Part shown: in pieces, positions 5,018-21,048 of the stretch
Layout of the letters: every line of letters begins with the position of its first letter
Position numbering within the stretch: position 1 is the stretch's first letter
NCBI RefSeq assembly: GCF_007747995.1
Contig: NZ_CP036276.1
Coordinates: 1,789,001 to 1,853,000, forward strand
Direction: 5' to 3'
DNA: 64,000 nt
Origin: Symmachiella dynata
Lineage (GTDB): Bacteria > Planctomycetota > Planctomycetia > Planctomycetales > Planctomycetaceae
The notes under the pieces: generated by a model
What the model saw: the letters and a program-made list of their open reading frames with translations, nothing else
Database searches by the model: none
What the model was told of the DNA's origin: nothing
Translations under genes and position numbers: made by a program

Positions 5018-7543
5018 ATGTTGCTTCTCGACAGAATTCAGTTTGGATACGCGAACTCTGGTCGCCAGCGGTTTCTTACCCGGTTTTCGACTGGTTTGGC
5101 AATCGTCTTGCTGGGGATGGTTGTTTTAGGTGGCGACTCGGCCAGGGGTGGGGAGCCGAAACCCGAAGATCTCAAATTCTTTGAAACAAAAATCCGCCCT
5201 CTGCTGCATAAACAGTGTGGTAGTTGCCATGGAGAGGAAGCACAGGAATCGGGATTGCGGCTCGATACCTATCGCGGGATTTGGGAAGGCGGGGACTTAG
5301 GCCCGACCGTGGTCCCCGGGGATGTCAAACACAGTCTGCTTTTCGCAGCGGTCGATTATAAAGACACCAATCTGCAAATGCCGCCGGATGGCAAACTGCC
5401 GCAAGCGTCGATCGATCTGATTCGAGAGTGGATCGAGCGTGGGGCTCCTCATCCAGATCAGAACGGTGAATTGCAACCGATCCCCCGCGCCGGGAAAATT
5501 GATCTTGAGGAAGCGCGAAAGCATTGGGCGTTCCAACCGATCACTCATCCGCAGGTCCCCGAGTTCGATCAGTCCGACTGGGACGAAAATCCGATCGATG
5601 CCTTCGTCTTCGCACGCATGCGCTCAGAAGGGTTACAACCGAATCCACCCGCTGACAAACGGACGCTAATTCGGCGAGCCACGTTCGACTTGACGGGGCT
5701 CCCTCCCACGCCGGAAGAGATTGAAGAGTTCCTTGCGGATGATTCGCCCGCTGCCTTCGACAAAGTCATCGACAGACTCTTAGCGTCGCAGCAATACGGC
5801 GAGCGCTGGGGACGACATTGGCTAGACGTAGCCCGGTATGCGGATAGCAACGGACTGGACGAAAACCTCGCCCATCTTGATGCGTGGAAGTATCGCAACT
5901 ACGTCATTAAGTCCTTCAATGACGACAAGCCGTTCGATCAGTTTATCATCGAGCAACTCGCTGGCGACATACTCTACAAGAAACGTAGGGGGGACTCCAC
6001 GCCGGATTCTGATGCGGATTTCGACTTGCTGATTGCAACCGGATACCTCACCCTCGGCCCGAAGGTGCTCGCCGAACAAGACGTCGTCAAGATGGAGATG
6101 GATATTATCGATGAGCAGATCGATGCAATGGGGCAAGCAGTGCTCGGATTGACGATCGCCTGTGCTCGTTGCCACGATCATAAATTCGATCCGATCTCAG
6201 CCGAAGATTACTACGCCATTGCAGGGATTCTAAAAAGCACAAAGACCATGCAGCGGTACGAGACGATTGCTCGTTACAACGAGCACATAATCGCCACGAA
6301 ACAACAGCACGAGGCGAAACGCCAAAACGAAGTGTTGAGAGCAGAAAAGAAAAAGGAAATTCAAAGCGTTCTTGATGCGGCACTCGCGGAACTGACTGAC
6401 GAAGACCGCAAGCTGCCCCCCAAAGACGCGGAATCAAAGTTTTCCGCTGAGGTCCAAGCTCAACTTAAAAAACTTCGCGAGGAAGACAAGCTGCTGAAGA
6501 AGCAGACCCCCGTTCTACCGACAGCCATGGGAGTTGTCGAAGGGACCGTTGATGACACTAGAGTTCATGTTCGCGGCAGCCACTTGACCTTAGGAAAGGT
6601 TGTGCAGCGCGGGGTTCCCGCTGTGTTGGAGCAGTACGGCTCTCTAGAGATTCCAGAATCAACGAGTGGACGTTTGCAGCTCGCCCAATGGATGGCCAGT
6701 TCCAGCAATCCGCTAACGGCCCGTGTGGCGGTCAATCGCATATGGTGCTGGCATTTTGGCCGGGGGATCGTCCGGACTGTTGAAAACTTTGGCAAATTGG
6801 GCGTGCCACCGACTCACCCGGATCTGCTGGATTGGCTGGCAGCAGAATTCATGGATGATGGCTGGTCGATCAAAGAAATGCATAAACGCATCATGCGGAC
6901 GCGCACCTATCAGATGAGCAGTGCGATGAATCCCCAAAATGTTGCGATTGACCCGGATAATCAGTATTTCTGGAGATCGCAATTACGACGTCTCGATGCT
7001 GAGGAAATACGCGACTCATTTCTCGCGGTGAGCGGACGGCTTGACCCAAGTATGGGGGGCCCCGTTTTGAATCTCCCCAAATGGAAGCTGGTCTTTAACC
7101 ACCGATCGAAGGATGCGACATCCTACGATTCGAACCGCCGTTCCATTTATTTACCTGTGATTCGAAACAATCTTTACGACGGTTTCTATCTGTTCGATTA
7201 CACCAATCCCGATGTGCCGACGGGCGACCGCGGGGCATCGACGGTTGCTCCTCAGGCGTTGTTTTTGATGAACAGTGATCTTGTGCTGCAATCTTCAATG
7301 AGTCTGGCCAAGCAGTTATTCAAGACGAGTCCCGACAACCCCCAAGAGCGCGCCGTGCTCCTCTATCAACGTGCCTTGGGCCGCAGTCCCGAAGGGGCAG
7401 AAGTGGACCGGCTGCTGGACTACACCACTCAGCTTGAGTCCATGCTACAAGCGGATCCGGATACAAAAACGCCGCAGCTTACGGCTTGGGCCGTTGTGTG
7501 CCAAAGTGTGCTGACTTCGAACGAATTCCTCTATGTCAAGTAA
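5018..7543 (+). CDS. PSD1 and planctomycete cytochrome c domain protein (DUF1549/DUF1553)
   Basis: An exported protein of 841 residues. After a signal peptide (to about residue 44) comes a planctomycete cytochrome c domain with the heme motif CGSCH at residues 67-71 and the distal region LQMPPDGKLP. Next is DUF1549 (PSD1), with NPIDAFVFARM, LTGLPPTPEEI and YGERWGRHWLDVARYADSNG, and with a second CxxCH (CARCH, near residue 382). A coiled-coil-prone KE-rich linker follows near residues 430-495. DUF1553 ends the protein, with NPLTARVAVNRIW and FGKLGVPPTHPDLLDWLA. I chose the ATG at 5018; an upstream ATG at 4970 would add 16 residues. The downstream DUF1501 gene is its standard partner. Planctomycetes carry dozens of these pairs, and their function is unproven. 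Confidence 0.93.
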   Translation: MLLLDRIQFGYANSGRQRFLTRFSTGLAIVLLGMVVLGGDSARGGEPKPEDLKFFETKIRPLLHKQCGSCHGEEAQESGLRLDTYRGIWEGGDLGPTVVPGDVKHSLLFAAVDYKDTNLQMPPDGKLPQASIDLIREWIERGAPHPDQNGELQPIPRAGKIDLEEARKHWAFQPITHPQVPEFDQSDWDENPIDAFVFARMRSEGLQPNPPADKRTLIRRATFDLTGLPPTPEEIEEFLADDSPAAFDKVIDRLLASQQYGERWGRHWLDVARYADSNGLDENLAHLDAWKYRNYVIKSFNDDKPFDQFIIEQLAGDILYKKRRGDSTPDSDADFDLLIATGYLTLGPKVLAEQDVVKMEMDIIDEQIDAMGQAVLGLTIACARCHDHKFDPISAEDYYAIAGILKSTKTMQRYETIARYNEHIIATKQQHEAKRQNEVLRAEKKKEIQSVLDAALAELTDEDRKLPPKDAESKFSAEVQAQLKKLREEDKLLKKQTPVLPTAMGVVEGTVDDTRVHVRGSHLTLGKVVQRGVPAVLEQYGSLEIPESTSGRLQLAQWMASSSNPLTARVAVNRIWCWHFGRGIVRTVENFGKLGVPPTHPDLLDWLAAEFMDDGWSIKEMHKRIMRTRTYQMSSAMNPQNVAIDPDNQYFWRSQLRRLDAEEIRDSFLAVSGRLDPSMGGPVLNLPKWKLVFNHRSKDATSYDSNRRSIYLPVIRNNLYDGFYLFDYTNPDVPTGDRGASTVAPQALFLMNSDLVLQSSMSLAKQLFKTSPDNPQERAVLLYQRALGRSPEGAEVDRLLDYTTQLESMLQADPDTKTPQLTAWAVVCQSVLTSNEFLYVK

Positions 7544-9331: not shown

Positions 9332-10300
9332 TTATACTTCGACCATCTCGATGTGCTGTTGCAGAATGGACCACAACGTCTCCCACGAGCAGGGCTTTGT
9401 CAGAAAAGCATCGGCTCCTAAGTTATACATTTTGCGTTCGACATCGTGCCCTTTTCGACCGGTTAAGACGACCACAGGTATGTCACGTGTTGCCGCGGTT
9501 TCCTTAATCCTACGTAGGACATAATCACCGTTGCCTTGTGGCATTTCGTAATCCAAAATGATAACGCGTGGGTTGCCAATGAACGCGCTGCGATATCCAT
9601 CCATGCCGGTAAACGTGCGGAGGACTTCAACGCCATGTTCCCGCAATCGCATTTCAATTCCCAGCGTCAGTTCAGCATCGTCGTCAATGCACAGAACCCA
9701 AGGGGCCTCGGAAGAGGTCGGCGCCGAGAAATCCGAGATGACCTCAGTGGCTGCATCTCCCTCAGCCGACACCGCACTGTCCATTCCTACAACACCAGCG
9801 ACAGCCGGTGCTGCTCCGTCCATTAAGTCGAATAGCCAATCGAACAATACTTTTTGGTCGCTATCTTCATAGGCAGACTCCGGTGCAGCGTTGATGTTGT
9901 CGTCGACCGAAAGCTTGTCGTGGGGCGCCTCATGCTCGAAGATGTCATCCAGTATCGGTTTGATGCGCGTCCAGACATCGGGACATTTGGCAACGTAATA
10001 CGAACATGTGTTGTGACAGCGACGGATTGTTTCCTCGTCGGATGCACCAGTGAGTACGATGACTGGAATCGACTGCAGTTGCTCGTTTTGCAGCATGACA
10101 TCCCGCACGGTCAATCCGTTTCCTCCAGGCATATTGACATCCAGAATCACAACGTCAGGGCGCACCTCACGAATGGACTTCAGCGCCGAGACCGCGTCAC
10201 TGGCGGTTACTACCCTTAGGCCACATTTCTGCGACCGCAATGACAACAGCGCGACAAGATCGGCATCGTCGTCGGCAATAAGAATTTGACGTTTCTGCAT
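9332..10300 (-). CDS. Response regulator with two receiver domains and no output domain
   Basis: A 322-residue cytoplasmic protein with two REC domains. REC1 covers about residues 4-122 (ADDD acidic cluster, VVILDVNMPGGNG with phospho-acceptor Asp54, VLTGA). REC2 covers about 200-320 (IDDD, VIILDYEMPQGNG with Asp250, VLTGRKG, LTKPCSW with the conserved Lys). An acidic, Ala/Asp-rich linker joins them. No DNA-binding or enzymatic output is visible, so it probably passes phosphate or binds a partner. I prefer the ATG at 10300 over a GTG at 10327 because REC1 starts right after it. It is the last gene of a minus-strand signalling run. Confidence 0.9.
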   Translation of the reverse strand: MQKRQILIADDDADLVALLSLRSQKCGLRVVTASDAVSALKSIREVRPDVVILDVNMPGGNGLTVRDVMLQNEQLQSIPVIVLTGASDEETIRRCHNTCSYYVAKCPDVWTRIKPILDDIFEHEAPHDKLSVDDNINAAPESAYEDSDQKVLFDWLFDLMDGAAPAVAGVVGMDSAVSAEGDAATEVISDFSAPTSSEAPWVLCIDDDAELTLGIEMRLREHGVEVLRTFTGMDGYRSAFIGNPRVIILDYEMPQGNGDYVLRRIKETAATRDIPVVVLTGRKGHDVERKMYNLGADAFLTKPCSWETLWSILQQHIEMVEV

Positions 10301-10402
10301 TTCTGAAGTTCCCAATACTGAGTGCACAAGTTAGTTTTTAAAGCACAGTGATCTTTCGCCAATCACGCCTGGATTGACACTTCAACCGACCCAAGGAGAT
10401 CT

Positions 10403-10795
10403 CTATTCGCTCGGCGTAATCAAATCCGCCGTACCGATTGCTGCTTGAACCACTTTGATGAGATTGCGGCCATCATAAGGTTTGGTCACAAAACAATTGG
10501 CTCCGGCATCCAAGGCTCGTTCTTGGTCCACGAGACTGGCCGACAACATCACGACCGGTATGTGTTGAGTTGAGGATTGTTCTTTCAATTCCGCCAACGC
10601 GGACAATCCATCCAGGTGTGGCATCCGCACATCCATGACGATGGCATCAGGTTGTTGTTGGGTCGCACATGCGACCGCTTGTTCTCCATCTTTGGCTGTG
10701 GATGTCTTGAAACCAGCAGTGGCCATCCACAATTGGGTTGCTTGCCGAATATCCGCTTCGTCATCGACCAATAGGATTGTTTTATTGGGGGACAT
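10403..10795 (-). CDS. Single-domain response regulator
   Basis: 130 residues, just one receiver domain of the CheY type. It has VDDEADI, AIVMDVRMPHLDG with phospho-acceptor Asp55, VVMLSAS, and FVTKPYDGRNL with the conserved Lys. There is no output domain, so it likely shuttles phosphoryl groups or binds a target protein. An AGGA lies 8 nt before the ATG at 10795. It sits between the two-REC protein and the REC-kinase, all on the minus strand with gaps of about 80-100 bp, and may share a transcript with them. Confidence 0.9.
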   Translation of the reverse strand: MSPNKTILLVDDEADIRQATQLWMATAGFKTSTAKDGEQAVACATQQQPDAIVMDVRMPHLDGLSALAELKEQSSTQHIPVVMLSASLVDQERALDAGANCFVTKPYDGRNLIKVVQAAIGTADLITPSE

Positions 10796-10876
10796 TTTTC
10801 ATTCCTAAGGTATTTAAGAAGGTTGGAGGGGACAGCGTTGATTGCCCCCTACGCTCCTCTGGCACAACAACATAAA

Positions 10877-12457
10877 TCATTCACAAGCCGGCTGGAGTTC
10901 AATCAGTTGGCGAAATGCGTCAAGGATGACTTCGGGCGTGAAAGCGACATCCCAAGTTCCTTCGACTTGCATTTGAAACTTGGGTAATGGGCCGAAGGGG
11001 CGATTCCGGTTGGTTTTCTGTAGTTCGTCGTCGACACGCTTCAGGAATTCAACAGTTTCGCTGCGCCGCATTGGCAAGGCAAAAAGCCAACGTTGCGGGC
11101 CAGCGCGAAACAATAGATCGTCGCGACGTAACAAATAGTTGAAAAATGCATCTACATCGGACACTGCGGAGTTCGAATCCTCGTCAATGATTTGGGCGCT
11201 GATCAGAGTAAAGAATGATTCTCCTGTCGTATTCGCGCCCCTTCTTTGCAAATACCGTGTCATCACAGCGAGAGGGTCATCTAACGGGACCGTGAACGAA
11301 AACGTCGTTCCTTGTCCCAATTGGCTCTCGACTGAAATATCGCCGAAATTCAGATCCACTAGTTCTTTGGCAATACTCAGGCCCAAGCCAAAACCTTTTG
11401 CGTTCCCTTTGGGTTGCGTGTTTAGCTGTTGAAAACGCTTGAATAGTAGAGCTAATCCATCGTCGTCAATTCCGGGGCCGTTATCAGTCACGTCAATCAT
11501 GAGTTCAGAACGAGCAGCGTCTTGGTGTGCCTCGATACGAACCGAGCCGGGGTCGCCGCAAAATTTCATGGCGTTGGTGACCAAATTGATGATCACACGC
11601 CCCACCTTTTCGGCATCACAATAGACAGCAGGCAACATTTCATCGACGTCGACGTCAAATGCAATTCCTTTCACCGCCGCCTTGCGGGCGAGGGGAGGGC
11701 AGACCGACGTCACGATTTTGGCAAGGTTGCAGGGCCGCCGCCACGCGCCAATCAGTCCTGATTCAAGCTTACTGACGTCGAGCATGTCATCGACCATGTT
11801 GTTCAAGTCGTCGGCGCGTACTCCCGCGATGTCGAGCATTCGACCTTGCTCTTCATTGATTTCCCCGGCAAGTCCTTCGCGAACCAATGAGACGTAGTCT
11901 TTGATCACAGTCAGCGGAGTGCGAAACTCATGGGAGACGTTATCCACAAACTGGTGTGCCGTTTTGTACAACTTTCGAAGTCGAGCATTCTTTTTATTCA
12001 GCAAAGATTTTTGCTCAGTCAGTAACTGATGACTCGATTCGATTCTCGCCAATAACTTTTGGTTTTCGACAATGCTTTCCTGTCGCTGAATCGCATGATG
12101 AATTGCACGCTCCAACGTATGAGGTGTTGCTTCATCCTTGATCAGATAGTCCTGCGCGCCAACCGTCAGCGATGACAGCTCCACTTGCTCGTCATCAAGC
12201 GTTGTTAGAACCAGAATCGGGACATGCTGGTTCTGGGTGCGGATGCGTTTCACAGTTTCTAATCCGAAACTGTCAGGCAATGAGAGGTCAGTCAACACGA
12301 CATCGCAGGACATTTCTGAAAGGCGCCTCAATCCCGCATTGAGAGATTGCTCCCAGACTAATTCTGTCGAACGGCGGCAGCGCTTCAGGCTGCGCTTGAT
12401 CAACTGATAATCCGTTGCATCATCTTCGATGAGTAGGACGCCTAGGTGGTCTTCCAT
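10877..12457 (-). CDS. Hybrid REC-histidine kinase with a degenerate GGDEF-like tail
   Basis: 526 residues, cytoplasmic (no membrane segment). REC covers residues 6-125 (LIEDDATDY, Asp57 in VVLTDLSLPDS, QDYLIKDE). A coiled coil lies at about 128-170, and HisKA has phospho-acceptor His176 in NVSHEFRTPL. HATPase_c lies at about 285-395 (NLVTNAMKFC, VTDNGPGID, GFGLGLSIAKEL). The C-terminal 125 residues look like a GGDEF fold in which the signature has become RAGPQRWLFALP, so no cyclase activity is expected. I chose the ATG at 12457 because GGAG lies about 8 nt upstream and this start does not overlap the next gene; the frame extends to 12580 only by running through it. The REC is paralogous to that of the kinase at 13336-14997. 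Confidence 0.9.
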   Translation of the reverse strand: MEDHLGVLLIEDDATDYQLIKRSLKRCRRSTELVWEQSLNAGLRRLSEMSCDVVLTDLSLPDSFGLETVKRIRTQNQHVPILVLTTLDDEQVELSSLTVGAQDYLIKDEATPHTLERAIHHAIQRQESIVENQKLLARIESSHQLLTEQKSLLNKKNARLRKLYKTAHQFVDNVSHEFRTPLTVIKDYVSLVREGLAGEINEEQGRMLDIAGVRADDLNNMVDDMLDVSKLESGLIGAWRRPCNLAKIVTSVCPPLARKAAVKGIAFDVDVDEMLPAVYCDAEKVGRVIINLVTNAMKFCGDPGSVRIEAHQDAARSELMIDVTDNGPGIDDDGLALLFKRFQQLNTQPKGNAKGFGLGLSIAKELVDLNFGDISVESQLGQGTTFSFTVPLDDPLAVMTRYLQRRGANTTGESFFTLISAQIIDEDSNSAVSDVDAFFNYLLRRDDLLFRAGPQRWLFALPMRRSETVEFLKRVDDELQKTNRNRPFGPLPKFQMQVEGTWDVAFTPEVILDAFRQLIELQPACE

Positions 12458-12471
12458 CTCTGTGCTCCGTT

Positions 12472-12933
12472 TTAGGTGCGATTGGAATTCGCCATAGCTC
12501 CGTGCAACTTTCGCAAAGGAACGTGTTTTAGAATTTCGTTTAGCAGCGATTGATAATGCACCGGCTTGTACAGTATGCAAGCAGCGCCTAACTGTCGAAG
12601 TTGGCTCGCCAACGACTCGTCGCGTTGCCCTGTAAGCACCAAGACGGGGATGTCAGCTGTCTGTTGCTCGCTCTTGACGCTTTGTAGCACTAGCTGACCA
12701 TCACCATTGGGCATCGCGATATCGGTGATGATGACATCGGGAGTATTCTGAGCAGCGTCCCAAGCCCCAAAATGTCCGCCATAGTCGCGAATGACGTTCA
12801 CGTCATAATTGGCAAGTACCATTTCCAAACACAGGGTGATGTCGGGATCGTCGTCAATGATCAATACGGTATGCTGCGTATTATAATTGGCGATTAATGT
12901 GTCCGCGCGATCGCAGAATGGCTTCATGCTCAT
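12472..12933 (-). CDS. Single-domain response regulator
   Basis: About 153 residues with one REC domain: LIIDDDPDI, DVIITDIAMPNGDG with phospho-acceptor Asp71, VLVLTGQ, and CILYKPVHY with the conserved Lys. There is no output domain. The start lies in a triple ATGAGC-type repeat (ATGs at 12939, 12933 and 12927). GGAG at 12941-12944 is 7 nt from the middle ATG, so I chose 12933; a TTG at 12954 is less likely. Its stop is 14 bp before the REC-kinase gene at 12457, so the two are almost certainly cotranscribed and the proteins probably work together. Confidence 0.88.
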   Translation of the reverse strand: MSMKPFCDRADTLIANYNTQHTVLIIDDDPDITLCLEMVLANYDVNVIRDYGGHFGAWDAAQNTPDVIITDIAMPNGDGQLVLQSVKSEQQTADIPVLVLTGQRDESLASQLRQLGAACILYKPVHYQSLLNEILKHVPLRKLHGAMANSNRT

Positions 12934-13335
12934 GCTCATGCTCCGTGATATCAATTTTAATGTGATTCACTATTCAGCAAGCAAAATGGTGGATGTCTTA
13001 GGCGAGTGGCATTTCTCGTAGCGCAATAATGAAGGAGACCGTTTGTGGTCAACTTATCAGCGCGCGTTGAAGGCTAAAGGCGTGAGGCCGCGTGATCTTG
13101 CGAACACGAGTGCGACCAGTAGGAGGTAGGTTGACACCGGATGGTGACATTGGTGTGTGTACAGCGGGATGAAAACTATAGGTCACCTTGGTGACTGACC
13201 GAGTCAAAATCGTTTTTTTTAGCGATTCGGCGGCATTCGCAATAAAAGCCACCGTTACGATCGTAACAGCCCTACTGTTGGGCTTGACCTGATCTAGCGG
13301 AGGCCTACCGCACTGACGGTCACAGACACAAGCTG
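12934..13335. other. Intergenic region, likely promoter of the minus-strand receiver/kinase run
   Basis: About 400 bp separate the kinase gene at 13336 from the response-regulator gene at 12933, both on the minus strand, so a promoter for the downstream run is expected here. The only distinct element seen is the palindrome at 13254-13267. A T8 run lies at about 13213-13220. Confidence 0.45.
13254..13267. promoter_or_regulatory. Perfect 14-bp palindrome, candidate operator
   Basis: GTTACGATCGTAAC is a perfect palindrome about 320 bp upstream of the response-regulator start at 12933 and about 70 bp beyond the stop of the kinase. It has the size of a dimer-binding operator, but no DNA-binding regulator is encoded in this signalling block. 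Confidence 0.3.
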
Positions 13336-14997
13336 CTAATCAGCCTGACCTGAACATACGATGGACTCTTCACCGGAATAGCAGGAAACAAGATTCAATA
13401 GCGCAGCGCGGTTGATCGGTTTGCTCAAATAGTCATCGCAACCCGCATCGAGACATTTCTCGCGATCTCCCATCATCGCGTTTGCAGTGAGAGCGATGAC
13501 TGGGACATCGAGGCCAGCTTGACGTAATTGCCGCGCCGCAGCATATCCATCTAAAACGGGCATCTGCATATCCATTAAAACAACATCGAATGGCGTACCG
13601 TTTTGGATCTGCTGTAGGATCTGATCACAAGCCAACTGACCATTGTCAACGACAGTCACATCGGCTCCTGCTTTTTGCAAGATATAAGAGATTAAACGCT
13701 GGTTATCCAAACCATCCTCAGCAAGCAAGAGACGACAGTCCAGCGACGCGACCTCAGGAGATATTGTTGCAGCAACTCGGTTTTCGCTGGGCATTTTGTC
13801 AGCAGGTTGCGGCTCCACGATTGAGACATGATCAATCGCCCCAATCGCGATCGTCGCTCGAAAAGTGCTTCCTACACCAAGCTCGCTTGAAACAGTAACG
13901 TCTCCACCCAAGCCCTCTGCCAATTTCTTGCAGATCGTTAACCCCAGCCCCGTCCCGCCGTATTGCCGGCTTGTTGAAGAATCGGCTTGTTTGAACGGTT
14001 TAAAAATCTGAGCCGTCTGCTCTGGGGTCATGCCGATCCCCGCATCAATGACATCAAGCTGAAGAAATGCGTTTTTGGCATTTCTCACCAGCGACGACTC
14101 GATGCGCACACATCCAGCGGAAGTGAATTTGATGGCATTTTCGACGAGATTGATCAGAATTTGTCTCAGTTGAGTGGGATCCGATTCGATGGTTTCGGGC
14201 ATTTCAGTGACAAAGTCGAGCGATAGAGAAAGCCCTTTAGCCGCGGACCGTACTTTCATCATTCGACCGACATCTAAAATTATATCGAGGGGAGAAAATC
14301 GGAGACACTCTGAATGACATTGTCCTGCTTCGATTTTGCTAAGGTCTAATATTCCATTGATTAAAGACAGAAGATGCTCTCCATTGCGTTGGATAATCTC
14401 TACAATTTCAATGGAATCAGTTTCATCAATCTGATCTTGCAGGATACCGGCGAACCCTAAAATGGCCGTGATCGGTGTGCGGATTTCATGGCTCATATTC
14501 GCCAAAAACTCGCTTTTTAGGCGATTGGCCTCTTCGACCACGATTTGAGTCTGCTTGAGTTGTTCCATCGCCTCGTAAAGCGCCGTCGTCGAGACTTCGA
14601 CGGCTCGTTGCATGCTCCTGCGCTCGATAGCGTACATGATGGATCTCTCCAGGAGCGATGGATCGATCATTTCCTTCGGAAGATAATCCTGAGCGCCCAA
14701 CTGCAAAGCACGGATCGCGACGTCGGGATCGTCTAATGTGGTGAGCACAATGATGGGAACATCGTGATCACAAGCACGAATGCGTTCGACCGTGGTCAAC
14801 CCATGGCTATCGGGTAATGATAAATCCGTCAACACAACGTCGAATTTGTTGGCATCGAGGTGTGACAATCCGCCAGCGAGACTCTGCTCCCAATGCAATT
14901 GAGTTGACCGAGACCCCTTTCTCAGGCAACGCCCCACAAGCTGGTGGTCGGCGGCATCATCTTCGATCAACAGCACATGCTGGGGCAGCGGGCTCAT
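13336..14997 (-). CDS. Hybrid histidine kinase REC-HisKA-HATPase-REC
   Basis: 553 residues, soluble. An N-terminal REC (Asp58 in VVLTDLSLPDS) is followed by a coiled coil at about 125-160 and HisKA with His170 in NMSHEIRTPITA. HATPase_c lies at about 275-395 (NLVENAIKFTS, GTGLGLTICKKL). A second REC at about 425-540 has Asp476 in VVLMDMQMPVLDG and LSKPINR. This is a phosphorelay architecture: signal enters through REC1 or the coiled coil, and phosphate can move from His170 to Asp476. No histidine phosphotransfer domain is visible in the window. GGAGG lies 8 nt before the ATG at 14997. The N-terminal REC is closely similar to that of the kinase at 10877-12457, indicating duplication. Confidence 0.93.
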   Translation of the reverse strand: MSPLPQHVLLIEDDAADHQLVGRCLRKGSRSTQLHWEQSLAGGLSHLDANKFDVVLTDLSLPDSHGLTTVERIRACDHDVPIIVLTTLDDPDVAIRALQLGAQDYLPKEMIDPSLLERSIMYAIERRSMQRAVEVSTTALYEAMEQLKQTQIVVEEANRLKSEFLANMSHEIRTPITAILGFAGILQDQIDETDSIEIVEIIQRNGEHLLSLINGILDLSKIEAGQCHSECLRFSPLDIILDVGRMMKVRSAAKGLSLSLDFVTEMPETIESDPTQLRQILINLVENAIKFTSAGCVRIESSLVRNAKNAFLQLDVIDAGIGMTPEQTAQIFKPFKQADSSTSRQYGGTGLGLTICKKLAEGLGGDVTVSSELGVGSTFRATIAIGAIDHVSIVEPQPADKMPSENRVAATISPEVASLDCRLLLAEDGLDNQRLISYILQKAGADVTVVDNGQLACDQILQQIQNGTPFDVVLMDMQMPVLDGYAAARQLRQAGLDVPVIALTANAMMGDREKCLDAGCDDYLSKPINRAALLNLVSCYSGEESIVCSGQAD

Positions 14998-15361: not shown

Positions 15362-16336
15362 ATGCAAGAGCGAAAAGGATTCGGAATGGAACGGCTGCGG
15401 AATTGCTTCGTTGCCCTGTTCCTGATCATTGGGCTGGTCGCTCCCCAAATCGTAAAAGCTGGCGACTCCGTCAAGGCTGCCATTTCGCCTCCAGACGTGT
15501 ATGAGCATGTCCGTTTGCTCCGAACCGAAATTGAATACGTTCGCAAGTACATCGGCCGACCTCAAGAGGCACGAGCTGAGATCGCGGTTTCCGATGCGGA
15601 GCCTCGCGAAGTTTTTTTCCAAGCGCTGACGTTATTTCGCAAAGCGAATCGCCTTAGCTTTGAGCTCACCCGCACACGGGCAGAGGAATTATTGTCACCA
15701 AACGACGAGCTGAAGCCGCGCCATGTATACGAAGCTGTTGATCATGCACTCCAACGAATTCGTAGCATCAAATCCAAGCTCAACCTGAAACAACAATTCA
15801 CAAAACAACCACCCGATATCACCAAGACACCAACCGATGTGTACCGTTCGATTGTCCAAGCGAACCGGCAGTTGAACCTCATGCTGGATCAGCAGTTTTC
15901 GCCAAGTGACGTTTACCAGCAACTGACCTTGGCAATTGCTTATGCCGAGCGTTTGATGGAGCAATACCCAGAGTTGGATTCTACAATCCCTGATCCGCCC
16001 AAATTTGAAGCCAATAAGATGCCTCGTGACGTCTACCAGAGGCTGCAAGGGTGTTACAGTTCTGTTCAAATAATCATTGAGCAAAACGGCAAACAATCCC
16101 TCACACTTGGAGCAATGTCGGAAGAGGAACTCAATCAAGTCTCTCCGAGTGATGTGTACGACATAGCCTCCTTGCTCGTTTCGGAATTGGCTTATCTACA
16201 TCGCGAAGGCCCCAACGCGCCCCCGCCACACCAAGCCTATTATCCAGGACGCAAGTTTCCTGCGGATTGTTATCAGCGAGCGGGCATTCTTGAGCAGCAG
16301 TTTGACCGACTCGCCCGGCAGCGGCCTGCCAACTGA
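15362..16336 (+). CDS. Exported protein made of about eight PxDVY repeats, unknown function
   Basis: 324 residues with an N-terminal signal peptide (RLRNCFVALFLIIGLVAPQ, cleavage probably near KAGDS). The mature protein repeats a short motif followed by an amphipathic helix: SPPDVY 42-47, EPREVF 80-85, KPRHVY 118-123, TPTDVY 156-161, SPSDVY 180-185, MPRDVY 220-225, SPSDVY 261-266 and FPADCY 299-304. The spacing is mostly 38-41 residues, with one of 24. I do not recognise this as a named family. It resembles no TPR consensus, though a helical repeat solenoid or bundle is likely. ATGs at 15362 and 15386 each have a good upstream AGGA; either keeps the signal peptide. Its stop is 44 bp before the probable GTG start of the membrane kinase, so the two are likely cotranscribed. 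Confidence 0.8.
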   Translation: MQERKGFGMERLRNCFVALFLIIGLVAPQIVKAGDSVKAAISPPDVYEHVRLLRTEIEYVRKYIGRPQEARAEIAVSDAEPREVFFQALTLFRKANRLSFELTRTRAEELLSPNDELKPRHVYEAVDHALQRIRSIKSKLNLKQQFTKQPPDITKTPTDVYRSIVQANRQLNLMLDQQFSPSDVYQQLTLAIAYAERLMEQYPELDSTIPDPPKFEANKMPRDVYQRLQGCYSSVQIIIEQNGKQSLTLGAMSEEELNQVSPSDVYDIASLLVSELAYLHREGPNAPPPHQAYYPGRKFPADCYQRAGILEQQFDRLARQRPAN

Positions 16337-16379: not shown

Positions 16380-19300
16380 GTGTCGGACAAACAGTCGTCG
16401 TTACAAAAAATTCAACATACCGGTGGATTGTATCGTCGCTTGCTCCGATCCCATCTTCTAGTGGCTGGCATTGGTTTGTTCATGCTGGCTGTCTCAATCG
16501 GCATTCTCTATTCAATGCGCGCCGCGACGCTCTATGCGGCGCAAGTTCGCAGTCCTTCAGCGCGCACCTCGGCTGTGGCATTGCAGGGTGTTCAAAAGTC
16601 GTTGGCGGCCTTGAGAGGTTGGGTCGCCCTAGGCGATGAAGAATTTAAAGAAGAACGAGCGGCCGCCTGGAACCAAGAAATTGATCCCGCCATCGCGGAA
16701 TTAGAACGCTTGAGCACGCATTGGGACGACCAAGCAGACCTCGCGCTCTTAGCGCAGGCGCAGAAGCGACTGCGAGGATTAAAAAAGACGCAATGGTGGA
16801 TTGAAGATCTCGCACAAACTCCCGGCAACGAACCGGCGCGCACGATTGTTCGATTCGAACTCGATCCGATTGCTGAACACATCACCGGGACCCTGAACCT
16901 GCTGATTCATTTAACAGCGAATTCCTCCGCCCCTGGCAACAGGACGCAGTTGCTCCTGGATCTTGTGGATCTAAGATTGAGTTTTTCACGTTGCCAACTG
17001 TTATTGAGTCAAATCATTGACCAACAGCAGGATGTGGATATGCCAACCTACCATGCTCTGGTTGCGACTGCGAAACAACAGTTTGATAATGCTGTTGGGC
17101 GCTCCGACACAACGAATCTTGAACAAAAGGCGTTGATTGCGAACCTCAATGATGAATTCCGGGCCTATCATCACCTCGCATCTGAAGCCGTACAGTTGAG
17201 TCAATCGCCAGAGGCCAACGTTGCTTTATCAATGTTAAGTGGCGATGCCGTTCCTGCAGCGCGTGACGTGACGATGTTGTTGGGTGAACTTTCAAACAAC
17301 CAAGCAGCACTCATGCGCCATGATGCCCAGGCTCTTGCGGCCAAAGGTTCTCGATGGCTAGGTTTTTCATTCGTGCTCGGGATCGGCATGCTCGGCATCA
17401 CTTATGTCGTTTCCAGACGCAACGCCGCCGCCATCGCTCGCCCCATCGCCACAATAGCCAGTGCAACAGAGCACCTCGCAAAAGGAAACTTAGTTGAGGA
17501 TCTGCCCATCACATCCTTTGACGAAGTTGGCCACTTGACGGAATCCTTCAATGCTATGCGGTCGCAATTGGAGGAACGCACCACGGAACTCGCCAAACAA
17601 ACGAGATTGGCGTTACTTGCCGAACAGGCGGCCACCGCCGCCGAACAACGGCGAGATGCGGCAAGGCGCAAGTCGCAAACCATGGCCACCGTCATACAGC
17701 AGTCGCACGTAGAACACGAACGCTTGGCCGCGAGTGAACAACTTTTTCGAGCCACGCTCGAAGCGGCACCTACGGCAATTTTGATGATCAACCGGGAAGG
17801 TCAGATCGTATTGGCCAATTCCGAATCCGTGAAATTATTTGGGTATTCACAAGACGAACTCTTGTCGCATCCCATGGAGATGCTCCTACCGCCACGCCTT
17901 AAACCTCGACATGTCAAACATCGTTCTGGTTATTTCGCTAATCCCACGACCCGTCGAATGAGCGAGAGCGATGAACTTGCCGGCATGCGTAAAGATGGAA
18001 CTGAATTTTTAGTCGAAGTCAGCCTCAGTCCAGTCACCACCGATGACGAAATGTTTGTCATCTGTTCCATCGACGACATCACCGTTCGCAAGCGGGCAGA
18101 AATTGCGCTTCGCGATCGTGATGAGCTTATCACGAGTTTACTCAATTCTACTGCAGAAGGGATCTACGGATTGGATCTCGAGGGGAATTGCACTTTCGCA
18201 AATCCCACATGCGCCAGAATATTGGGATATAAAACTCCTGAAGAGTTTCTCGGCAAGAACATGCACCAATTGATTCACCATACACGTTCCGATGGGACGT
18301 CGTATCCTGCAAATGAGTGCCCTATCTTTTCGGCATTTCGCGAAGGCCGCGGCGTGCATGTTGAGGACGAGTCGTTGTGGAGGCAAGATGGCTCAGCGTT
18401 TCCAGCTGAGTTTTGGTCGTATCCAGTAAGTCGTAATGGCGAACTGGTCGGCTCGGTCGTGACCTTTCTCGACATCACCGAACGACGCAAAAGTGAAAAC
18501 GAAGTCCGGCGTTTGGCTGACATTGTCGAATCATCTGACGACGCGATATTTGGTGCAACACTCGAAGGCCTGATCACCAGTTGGAACGATGGGGCTGAGC
18601 GACTTTACGGATATTCGGCAAGTGAAATGGTTGGCCAACCGTCCGAACAACTCTTTGCTCCGGAGCAAAGAGTAATCGTATCTCGGGCTCTCGAACAGAT
18701 CGGTGATCGACAGTCAGTGCGAAATCTGGAAATGGTTCAGGTTTGTAAAGATGGAACGATCATTGATGTCTCTTTGACGATTTCGCTACTCATGGATCAA
18801 CAGCGAAACGTGGTCGGGACATCCACAATTGCCCGCGACATTACGCAACGCAAGCTGCTGGAAAAAACGCAGCAGCAAATCAACATTGAGCTCGAAGGAC
18901 GCGTCGAACAACGCACCCGGGAGTTAAATCATCAACACCAGGCAGCAATCGCAATGGCCGAGGAAGCCCAGAAGGCGCGATTAATTGCTGAGCAAGCGGA
19001 ACGCCGCCTGGAGCAAGTCGCCTCGCAATTGGCCATGCCCCCTCGCGCCCCACATGACCGCACTCAAACCTTTAGTGTGAGAGACTTTTTTTTGAGCGAC
19101 ATGATGAAGTGTGGTGCATGGATTCGTGGTCTCTGCCAACACCACGCATCGCAATCGGAGTATGCGAAGGCTCTTGTTCGGTTATTTCATCAACACTTTC
19201 AGCGCGATGAAGGGGAATCTGAATTTGCTTTAGTGCGTGTATTTCATTCCAACCGGTTCAAAAACCTTACCCCAGAACTCCAATCGATGGCTCGCTCCCG

Positions 19301-20648
19301 TTCCTCTGACGTCCAGGACGAAACCATCTGTCTTTCGTTGTTGGCTACGGTCGGTGACCAACCCGAATGGTGCGAGGTTAAAAATTCCAAATCACACCGC
19401 ATCATCCCACTGAACAACGCTGAAACGGTACGGCGTCTTCCGATGATGTCTCGATTGTTCAAACAGCTTGGCTTTTCATTTAACGGTTTGGGGCAGATTC
19501 AATCCAATGACGAAGTCCTCGTTGCGGACACAGGCGTTTTTCACATTCAACAAGCACAGGGAAGTGAATTTGTTCCCGCTCAAGAACAATTCGTCGAACC
19601 CTTTGGTATTCAGTCGGTTGTCGGATTCGGTGATCTCCTGCCTAACGGGGACCTTTTTGTCGTCATCGGTTTCGCAAAACATGAAATCTCCGCCAAAGTT
19701 GCATTGCTTTTCTCGCATTTGTCGCACAGCACACGGCTCGGCTGGTTGCCCTATATCGATTCCGATCAAAAAACAGTCTGGCAGATGCTCGCTTTCGACC
19801 AGCTTCTCTCCAACCATGAACGCATTGTTGCAGATCAAGAAGCTGTCGTTTTAGAAACGATGGCGGCGGTAACGTCAGCCAATGAAGCCCTGGAGCGAAG
19901 TAACCAAGAGCTAGAACAATTTGCATACGTTGCCTCGCACGACCTCCAGGAACCTTTGAGAAAAGTGGCGTCCTGCTGCCAAGCTTTGGCGGAAGATTAT
20001 TCCGAAAATCTGGATGAAGACGGACACGAGTGGATTCAGTTCGCCGTTGACGGCGCAACCCGTATGCGCCGACTCGTCAGCGACCTAATGGAATTCTCAC
20101 GAGTCAGCACAAAAGGAAAACCACCCGTACCAGCCGATGCATTCCAGTGTTGTGAAGAAGCTTTGCAAAACTTGGCAGACGCAATCGAAGAGAAACACGC
20201 ACAAGTTATCTGTCGCCCACTCCCCACAGTTTTGGCTGATAAGCGGCAACTGACTCAATTATTTCAGAACCTCATTGGAAACGGCTTAAAGTACTGCAGC
20301 GACGAACAACCGGTGATTGAGATCGGTTCCGAACCCGAGGGGGGCCATTGGCGGTTTTATGTCAAGGATAATGGCATTGGCATCGCTCTGGAGTTCCACG
20401 AACGAATATTTCAGGTCTTCCAGCGGCTTCATCGCAAGGAAGAATACCCTGGCACAGGGATCGGCCTGGCGATCTGCAAAAAAATTGTCGAACGCTTGGG
20501 GGGCAAATTGTCCTTGGAGTCGCAAACTGGCCAAGGTAGCACATTTTACTTTACTATCCCCTCAGCGGATTTAATGCAAAACGGAGCTTCAGTAGATGAA
20601 ACCCCAAGATACGCCATCGGTGCGCCCAATTCAGATTCTCTTAATTGA
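16380..20648 (+). CDS. Membrane PAS-domain sensor histidine kinase
   Basis: About 1422 residues. Two membrane segments at about 26-47 and 325-345 enclose a periplasmic helical sensor region, and a HAMP-like segment and coiled coil follow. Three PAS domains lie at about 455-570, 583-700 and 710-823, then a coiled coil. A region at about 900-1120, with SVVGFGDLLPNGDLFVVIGF, is a non-PAS, GAF-like module I cannot name. HisKA has the phospho-acceptor in ASHDLQEPLRK (about His1186), and HATPase_c is at about 1280-1397 (NLIGNGLKYC, GTGIGLAICKKIVE). No REC is attached; the receiver gene that overlaps its 3' end is the likely partner. I chose GTG at 16380 because GGAGG lies 4 nt upstream; a TTG at 16290 in the same frame would overlap the PxDVY gene by 47 bp. 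Confidence 0.9.
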   Translation: MSDKQSSLQKIQHTGGLYRRLLRSHLLVAGIGLFMLAVSIGILYSMRAATLYAAQVRSPSARTSAVALQGVQKSLAALRGWVALGDEEFKEERAAAWNQEIDPAIAELERLSTHWDDQADLALLAQAQKRLRGLKKTQWWIEDLAQTPGNEPARTIVRFELDPIAEHITGTLNLLIHLTANSSAPGNRTQLLLDLVDLRLSFSRCQLLLSQIIDQQQDVDMPTYHALVATAKQQFDNAVGRSDTTNLEQKALIANLNDEFRAYHHLASEAVQLSQSPEANVALSMLSGDAVPAARDVTMLLGELSNNQAALMRHDAQALAAKGSRWLGFSFVLGIGMLGITYVVSRRNAAAIARPIATIASATEHLAKGNLVEDLPITSFDEVGHLTESFNAMRSQLEERTTELAKQTRLALLAEQAATAAEQRRDAARRKSQTMATVIQQSHVEHERLAASEQLFRATLEAAPTAILMINREGQIVLANSESVKLFGYSQDELLSHPMEMLLPPRLKPRHVKHRSGYFANPTTRRMSESDELAGMRKDGTEFLVEVSLSPVTTDDEMFVICSIDDITVRKRAEIALRDRDELITSLLNSTAEGIYGLDLEGNCTFANPTCARILGYKTPEEFLGKNMHQLIHHTRSDGTSYPANECPIFSAFREGRGVHVEDESLWRQDGSAFPAEFWSYPVSRNGELVGSVVTFLDITERRKSENEVRRLADIVESSDDAIFGATLEGLITSWNDGAERLYGYSASEMVGQPSEQLFAPEQRVIVSRALEQIGDRQSVRNLEMVQVCKDGTIIDVSLTISLLMDQQRNVVGTSTIARDITQRKLLEKTQQQINIELEGRVEQRTRELNHQHQAAIAMAEEAQKARLIAEQAERRLEQVASQLAMPPRAPHDRTQTFSVRDFFLSDMMKCGAWIRGLCQHHASQSEYAKALVRLFHQHFQRDEGESEFALVRVFHSNRFKNLTPELQSMARSRSSDVQDETICLSLLATVGDQPEWCEVKNSKSHRIIPLNNAETVRRLPMMSRLFKQLGFSFNGLGQIQSNDEVLVADTGVFHIQQAQGSEFVPAQEQFVEPFGIQSVVGFGDLLPNGDLFVVIGFAKHEISAKVALLFSHLSHSTRLGWLPYIDSDQKTVWQMLAFDQLLSNHERIVADQEAVVLETMAAVTSANEALERSNQELEQFAYVASHDLQEPLRKVASCCQALAEDYSENLDEDGHEWIQFAVDGATRMRRLVSDLMEFSRVSTKGKPPVPADAFQCCEEALQNLADAIEEKHAQVICRPLPTVLADKRQLTQLFQNLIGNGLKYCSDEQPVIEIGSEPEGGHWRFYVKDNGIGIALEFHERIFQVFQRLHRKEEYPGTGIGLAICKKIVERLGGKLSLESQTGQGSTFYFTIPSADLMQNGASVDETPRYAIGAPNSDSLN

Positions 20649-21048
20649 GGATGACTTAGCTGACATTAAATTGACAAAACGTGCACTCGAGAATGAGAGA
20701 ATCTTGAATGACATTCATGTCGTTCGCGATGGCGTGGAAGCGATGCAGTTTCTCCGTCGTGAGGAAGAGTATGAAAATGTCCCGCGCCCCGATCTCATCC
20801 TATTGGACTTGAACATGCCGCGCAAAGATGGTCGGGAAACTCTGCATGAAATTAAAACCGACCCTGAATTAAAAACGATTCCCGTAGTCGTCATGACGAC
20901 GTCTGAGGACGAATCTGATGTCTCCCGCAGCTATCTAGAGCACGCCAATAGCTATATCACGAAACCAGTCGACATGGAGCAATTCAAACATGTCGTTCGG
21001 GTCATCAATGCGTATTGGTTTTCGGTCGTCAAACTGCCATCAAATTGA
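20596..21048 (+). CDS. Single-domain response regulator, Rcp1-like
   Basis: 150 residues, one receiver domain of the kind partnered with phytochrome-type and PAS kinases (Rcp1-like). It has LLIEDDLADI, DLILLDLNMPRKDG with phospho-acceptor Asp71, VVVMTTSEDE, and SYITKPVDMEQF with the conserved Lys. The gene starts 53 bp inside the 3' end of the membrane kinase, in another frame, with GGAG about 9 nt upstream of the ATG. Such overlap implies translational coupling and makes this the probable direct phosphate acceptor. There is no output domain, so the final effector is not known. Confidence 0.93.
   Translation: MKPQDTPSVRPIQILLIEDDLADIKLTKRALENERILNDIHVVRDGVEAMQFLRREEEYENVPRPDLILLDLNMPRKDGRETLHEIKTDPELKTIPVVVMTTSEDESDVSRSYLEHANSYITKPVDMEQFKHVVRVINAYWFSVVKLPSN

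Follow-up and report, generated by a model that had tools for sequence, protein, structure and literature searches.

An exported PxDVY repeat protein, usually encoded directly before a membrane receptor, as a candidate periplasmic co-receptor in Symmachiella dynata

The repeat protein and the adjoining kinase

We analysed a stretch of 64,000 nucleotides of the Symmachiella dynata genome (contig NZ_CP036276.1, positions 1,789,001 to 1,853,000; hereafter the window, in whose own numbering coordinates are given), in which the open reading frame (ORF) at 15362-16336 on the plus strand encodes a repeat protein of 324 aa that we propose as an exported, periplasmic co-receptor of the membrane histidine kinase encoded immediately downstream (16380-20648, plus strand). 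Eight P-x-[DEH]-[VC]-[YF] motifs (PxDVY for short) start at residues 43, 81, 119, 157, 181, 221, 262 and 300, with spacings of 38, 38, 38, 24, 40, 41 and 38; a first-pass annotation made from the DNA alone had recognised the same regular array of eight, with every residue number one too low (42, 80 and so on). When the mature protein was shuffled 100,000 times, 98,218 shuffles held no motif, 1,769 held one and 13 held two, the maximum reached, and the repeat ORF is the only one amongst the 127 window ORFs of at least 100 aa to exceed a single motif.

The N-terminus carries a hydrophobic core at residues 12-23 with no further transmembrane (TM) segment in a topology scan, and V-K-A lies ahead of residue 34 by eye, so that a Sec-type signal peptide covering residues 1-33 (15362-15460) is plausible, although the true start may be Met9 at 15386. 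A hydrophobic core within residues 1-57 was likewise found in 16 of 20 scanned repeat proteins, those without one being L021 and L026, both of which are given from a late start, L029, which the contig end truncates, and L092 (loci are denoted by L numbers and genomes by G numbers).

The AlphaFold2 model of the repeat protein, built with 15 sequences, has a mean pLDDT of 87.6 and a pTM of 0.81 (most ten-residue blocks of the mature protein exceed 90) and is all-helical apart from short strands. The first-pass annotation had predicted an amphipathic helix after each motif, and the helix itself is borne out by the model, in which one begins at every motif. Along the plus strand the predicted units are repeat 1 (PPDVY, helix 43-64; 15488-15601), repeat 2 (PREVF, helix 81-103, the most conserved helix; 15602-15715), repeat 3 (PRHVY, helix 119-139; 15716-15829), repeat 4 (PTDVY, helix 157-174, a short unit of 24 residues; 15830-15901), repeat 5 (PSDVY, helix 181-199; 15902-16021), repeat 6 (PRDVY, helix 221-241; 16022-16144), repeat 7 (PSDVY, helix 262-282, followed by a linker that holds a conserved PGRKF; 16145-16258) and repeat 8 (PADCY, helix 300-318; 16259-16333). 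Across 15 members helices 2, 7 and 8 are the best conserved, and because each repeat keeps its own conserved letters the repeats are not interchangeable and behave as one fixed domain. Helix 6 commonly holds a Cys, and helices 7 and 8 a His, but inspection of the alignment by eye revealed no obvious metal or haem site.

The statement that no named repeat family could be recognised held throughout. Pfam and NCBIfam gave nothing credible for the window protein or for 15 family members, a repeat profile showed no resemblance to solved PDB chains (best E 5.7), and Foldseek searches with the model gave a best E of 1.3 against the PDB, with TM at or below 0.22 in the best 50 of 60 matches, and no match below E 0.9 against viral structures. 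The bilobal fold of periplasmic binding proteins is not seen in this protein, given its all-helical model with neither a PDB fold match nor a Pfam match. As modelled, the fold is apparently undescribed and possibly new, in the sense only that Foldseek finds no relative, and a literature search confined to open-licence papers found no description of a PxDVY repeat family. A PexRD54_WY match (E 0.038, scoring 14.3 bits where the cut-off is 27) was taken as chance, as were further weak Pfam matches that never occurred in more than two of the 15 members, and two NCBIfam matches (E 0.0014 and 0.053) in one member each.

The kinase comprises TM1, a helical periplasmic domain, TM2, HAMP, three PAS stretches, HisKA and HATPase_c, the last two lying behind TM and HAMP as in a two-component sensor histidine kinase. 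Its periplasmic part between TM1 and TM2 (16500-17357, plus strand; residues 41-326 counted from the GTG at 16380) is a putative helical bimodular-like sensor domain and the proposed docking site, followed by the HAMP domain (17424-17576, plus strand), one of seven HAMP matches in the whole 7.77 Mb genome. The repeat gene is indeed wedged between two histidine-kinase genes (13336-14997, minus strand, and 16380-20648, plus strand) and sits just before the large membrane kinase, the gap to its GTG at 16380 being 43 bp rather than the 44 bp first given; the kinase start codon is not certain. A single-domain response regulator (20596-21048, plus strand) overlaps the 3' end of the kinase gene by 53 bases (20596-20648) and probably belongs to the same operon.

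Membrane receptors downstream of the repeat genes

In order to judge the proposed partnership we used ORF lists to read the gene downstream of 25 independent repeat genes, 21 of which stand immediately ahead of a membrane receptor gene, sharing its strand and either overlapping it or ending within about 70 bases of it (window, L012, L013, L016, L020-L024, L026, L028, L029, L030 with L096, L031-L033, L035, L092, two in L094, and L095). The seven HAMP matches in the 7.77 Mb of the S. dynata genome give a scale for this frequency; even at a 5% chance per neighbour, at least 21 of 25 would arise with a probability of 5e-24, ignoring the relatedness of the loci. L014 and L029 are one locus, as are L015 and L033, each counted once; L030 was counted with L096 because both contigs share an exact 141-base end. 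L017, where the contig ends after the repeat gene, was left out, whereas L034, a 136-aa fragment cut on its 5' side, was retained and counted among the exceptions. The first-pass annotation had proposed asking whether homologues always neighbour PAS kinases, and the outcome strongly favours a partner role, with the exception of four Nitrospirota genes that lack a receptor.

The receptors differ in their output. According to Pfam 14 of the 21 are histidine kinases (window, L012, L016, L020, L023, L024, L028, L029, L031-L033, L035, L092 and L096), the L014/L029 call resting on HATPase_c with HisKA and HAMP below cut-off. Chemoreceptor outputs with an MCP signalling domain occur in L013 and L095, a guanylate/adenylate cyclase in L022, and in L026 a Ser/Thr kinase that forms one protein with its receptor. 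In L094, from a Campylobacteraceae metagenome-assembled genome (MAG), a PAS receptor is followed by GGDEF in the next, frame-broken ORF, and the second receptor is PAS-GGDEF-EAL, also with a frame break; the L021 receptor reads HAMP-PAS-GAF up to the contig end. Pfam lists no PAS in the receptors of L014, L016, L022, L023, L024, L026, L028, L035, L092, L095 and L096. PAS was therefore rejected as the linking domain, and the expectation that PAS kinases would be the constant neighbour fails on these 11 receptors and on outputs that are not always a histidine kinase. HAMP was found by Pfam in 18 of the 21 receptors, three of these below cut-off, and is not listed for L026 or either L094 receptor. 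A topology scan of 20 receptors (all except L096) showed two TM segments 203-297 residues apart in 19; L094b, one of the two receptors of L094, shows one because its reading frame starts late.

The commonest element, shared by most partner receptors, is instead a periplasmic domain predicted to be a tandem helical bundle; the sensor is thus largely retained where the output is exchanged. The sensor regions of twelve receptors align with 16-33% identity to that of the window, with four invariant columns and seven nearly so. The sensor profile also matches the sensors of L012 (E 2e-81), L013 (E 3e-38) and L096 (E 2e-48), and the L092 sensor is 33% identical. In Pfam scans 4HB_MCP_1 was near or below cut-off in four of five members of the sensor alignment and above it in L013; the helical bimodular (HBM) domain was not listed. 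The model of the window sensor has eight helices (mean pLDDT 88.8), and its best PDB matches were the McpS domain 2yfa (E 1.9e-3, probability 1.00), PilJ (8wdf and 7zjr) and TorS (3i9y), the TorS-TorT entries 3o1j, 3o1h and 3o1i being also among the matches; probabilities were 0.99-1.00, none fell below E 0.001, TM by query length was 0.33-0.47, and the TorS matches were weak (E 0.005-0.033). At the sequence level the sensor profile matched LytS chains weakly (E 0.007) and chemoreceptor chains better (5xua, E 4e-4). Repeat proteins of 604-607 aa pair with another sensor type, PF21623, in both of the two readable cases (L016:9028-13295 and L035:768-6060). The idea of a periplasmic partner is supported, and the link runs through the sensor domain, not through PAS or kinases as such.

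L094:3883-9851 holds two repeat genes close together, each followed by a cyclic di-GMP (c-di-GMP) receptor, and the interrupted frames there may be real or an assembly error.

Distribution and joint divergence of the repeat protein and the sensor

The S. dynata genome has one copy of the repeat gene. Four of 150 genomes of its own family matched the repeat search, one of them (G123) by chance, and the two listed genomes of the same genus gave no match. In profile searches, with at most about five candidates scored per genome, 5 of 392 phylum genomes carried a genuine repeat gene, namely G000, G188, G204, G339 and G376; all five were found with profile A1, and profile A5 recovered the first four, missed G376 and added a chance match in G171. 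The weak matches in G123 and G171 were rejected since the surrounding ORFs hold no repeat array. Searches of the order of G188 (23 genomes) and of that of G204 (148 genomes) matched G188 and G204 alone.

A pattern scan of genome contigs from 84,980 species with the repeat alignment confirmed 16 of 45 pattern stretches, a lower bound because the scan is pattern-based; a single-protein query on the same contigs gave no match. Record labels place the 16 relatives in Planctomycetota, Deltaproteobacteria, Nitrospirota, Nitrospinota, Acidobacteriota, Methylococcales, Coxiellaceae, Campylobacteraceae, an unnamed proteobacterium and an uncultured bacterium. Fifteen are MAG records, whose labels can be wrong, and Planctomycetes bacterium Pan216 (L023) is a complete chromosome. 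The family is thus rare, yet by these labels it reaches at least five other phyla, and such a scattered distribution suggests a signalling module moving between phyla. Viral contigs and plasmids yielded no relatives, a phage collection not being searched. Two long members of 607 and 626 aa are 34% identical, a third has 604 aa (L035), and these have more, or degenerate, repeats; G188, which has a long member, matches the eight-repeat profile in two successive stretches.

The sensor profile gave three full-length matches in the 150 family genomes, exactly the three that carry the repeat gene, the window being one of these and itself a row of the profile, together with two partial, weak matches (G072 and G077). 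It matched 14 of the 392 phylum genomes. The repeat gene is present in the top three (E 1.4e-89 or lower), a rank that is no evidence because all three are profile rows. In a tree built from 18 partnered and 11 unpartnered sensors the partnered ones cluster, with 3 label changes against a shuffled mean of 9.1 and none of 500 shuffles as low; good support is limited to 8 of its 26 inner branches, and several of its rows are long. The window kinase and the Ser/Thr kinase L026 have sister sensors on this tree (support 99/81), a direct case of exchanged output. Distances between repeat proteins correlate with those between sensors (r 0.752 for 15 pairs and 0.771 for 18 pairs), a value reached in none of 5000 permutations.

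Related helical-bundle receptors that have no repeat partner lie in L059-L071 (13 stretches from 11 genomes).

A candidate co-receptor and its alternatives

TorS is a kinase that binds the periplasmic protein TorT, the pair serving in the sensing of trimethylamine N-oxide. The pair encoded in the window resembles this system in that a separate periplasmic protein accompanies a kinase with an all-helical periplasmic domain whose model matches TorS, and differs from it in that TorT is counted among the bilobal ligand-binding proteins (PMC6321045) whilst the repeat protein is predicted to be all-helical with PxDVY repeats. TorS-TorT, LytS-XylFII and LuxQ-LuxP are all kinases that sense through a binding protein (PMC6321045; also PMC8534201). 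XylFII-LytS and LuxP-LuxQ are alike in having the ligand sensed for the kinase by such a protein, and LytS chains are weakly matched by our sensor profile, but their partners are bilobal, and the domains of LuxQ are of the PDC type rather than helical bundles. Among chemoreceptors, CtpL has a helical bimodular domain and also senses through a binding protein (PMC6321045), and by this precedent neither such a domain nor a chemoreceptor is new in an indirect-sensing role; CtpL-type sensing is mediated by a binding protein, and no all-helical repeat partner is named in the passages of PMC6321045 consulted. The architecture predicted for the window sensor resembles that of the HBM domain of McpS, and of PilJ (best match 2yfa), although McpS was solved with malate and succinate bound, according to the entry titles, and Pfam names 4HB_MCP_1, near or below its cut-off, instead of HBM. 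For the Ser/Thr kinase output there is a parallel in GlnH-GlnX-PknG of Corynebacterium, where a periplasmic and a membrane protein are suggested to control a Ser/Thr kinase (PMC9769921), with the differences that GlnH is a periplasmic binding protein and that receptor and kinase are one protein in L026.

Since the family is usually encoded right before a membrane receptor, the repeat protein is probably the receptor's outside, signal-sensing partner, with the partnership as such well supported by computation, and we think it likely that it acts as a periplasmic co-receptor docking on the helical bimodular-like sensor domain of the downstream kinase. The simplest account is that it would work like TorT but from outside the binding-protein family. 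The protein would be exported through Sec and fold into a single eight-helix domain in which a P-x-D-V-Y turn opens each helix, and would then dock on the periplasmic domain of the kinase; when its state changes, most probably on binding a ligand, a signal would pass from the sensor domain through TM2 and HAMP to the output, a histidine kinase in the window and a chemoreceptor, cyclase, Ser/Thr kinase or c-di-GMP output elsewhere. Of this account, the repeats, the conservation of gene order, the relatedness of the sensor domains and the exchange of outputs are shown by the sequences, and both folds are predictions.

Several observations weigh against such a co-receptor. Four of the 25 repeat genes have no adjacent receptor, namely those of L025, L027 and L034 and the interrupted copy in L093. 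They come from three Nitrospirota MAGs and form the main unexplained exception; the three genomes also gave no match to the sensor profile at E 0.01, although they may be incomplete. The sensors of L094 (15 and 19% identity to the window sensor) and L095 (11%) are doubtful members of the sensor family, and the L016 and L035 receptors carry the other sensor type. In the phylum, 11 of the 14 genomes matched by the sensor profile lack a repeat gene, as judged from 13 fetched stretches and the profile searches, so that most receptors of the wider kind do without the repeat protein, and the unpartnered G306, G481, G177 and G512 score above the partnered chemoreceptor of G006. Clustering on the sensor tree is not clean either, as the partnered L013 and L031 sit among the unpartnered sensors, and the matching divergence of the two proteins can also stem from joint transfer of the operon. 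Finally, in Pseudomonas aeruginosa the genes of the kinases AgtS and AruS have binding-protein genes next to them, yet these proteins did not bind the sensor domains of the two kinases (PMC11113362), so that neighbouring genes are no proof of binding.

In principle the repeats could be a form of an established solenoid, for instance TPR, SEL1 or HEAT, an outcome that the first-pass annotation had named as counting against its proposal, and their helical nature and period of mostly 38-41 residues fit that idea; we consider it highly improbable, since no Pfam solenoid, TPR and SEL1 included, matched any of 15 members at E up to 1 and the Foldseek search of the PDB reached no better than E 1.3, with the low TM values noted above. 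Kinase operons often contain their own targets, and the repeat protein might be such a cargo or effector, perhaps an envelope or binding protein, under the control of the neighbouring receptor but not in contact with it. The Nitrospirota genes without a receptor, where those in L025, L027 and L093 follow a small-protein gene instead, are in keeping with this, but the gene order also recurs where the output is a chemoreceptor, a cyclase, a Ser/Thr kinase or a c-di-GMP enzyme, none of them a two-component transcription output, and the sensor domain is what most partners share, making a mere regulated neighbour unlikely. Compatible with the partner role is the more tentative possibility that the protein is a constitutive structural or inhibitory subunit of the receptor, which would sense the state of the envelope (cell wall, membrane or tension) with no small ligand. 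That no binding-protein fold was recognised and no metal or haem site stands out, despite the common Cys and His residues, is consistent with such a subunit, whereas the patchy conservation of helices 2, 7 and 8 and of the PGRKF linker also suits a binding site.

Returning to the co-receptor reading, we give an even chance to its widest form, in which the family is a class of periplasmic co-receptors not described before, has a new, all-helical fold and acts as a general input module, joined together with the helical-bundle sensor domain to six output kinds (histidine kinase, chemoreceptor, nucleotide cyclase, Ser/Thr kinase, GGDEF and GGDEF-EAL), so that one outside sensor kind would feed all main signalling currencies across phyla. 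The binding-protein partners of receptors are, in the reviews consulted, of the bilobal solute-binding kind, and the repeat protein would be a second, unrelated fold in that role. If this is true, helical-bundle receptors without a known ligand may await an unrecognised exported partner, and because the same pair goes with several output kinds, one ligand screen or complex structure would open all of them.

Two kinds of neighbour were noted besides these. The Nitrospirota repeat genes follow a gene for a small, exported-looking protein (L025:9286-9852, L027:9421-9963 and L093:5393-5728), and these upstream proteins (P0007/P0008) have no Pfam match and are of unknown family; L093, from the same MAG as L025, holds a second, interrupted copy of the repeat gene at 5966-6873. 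In the window, a run of response-regulator and hybrid kinase genes lies beside the locus on the minus strand (9332-12954, from the ORF list).
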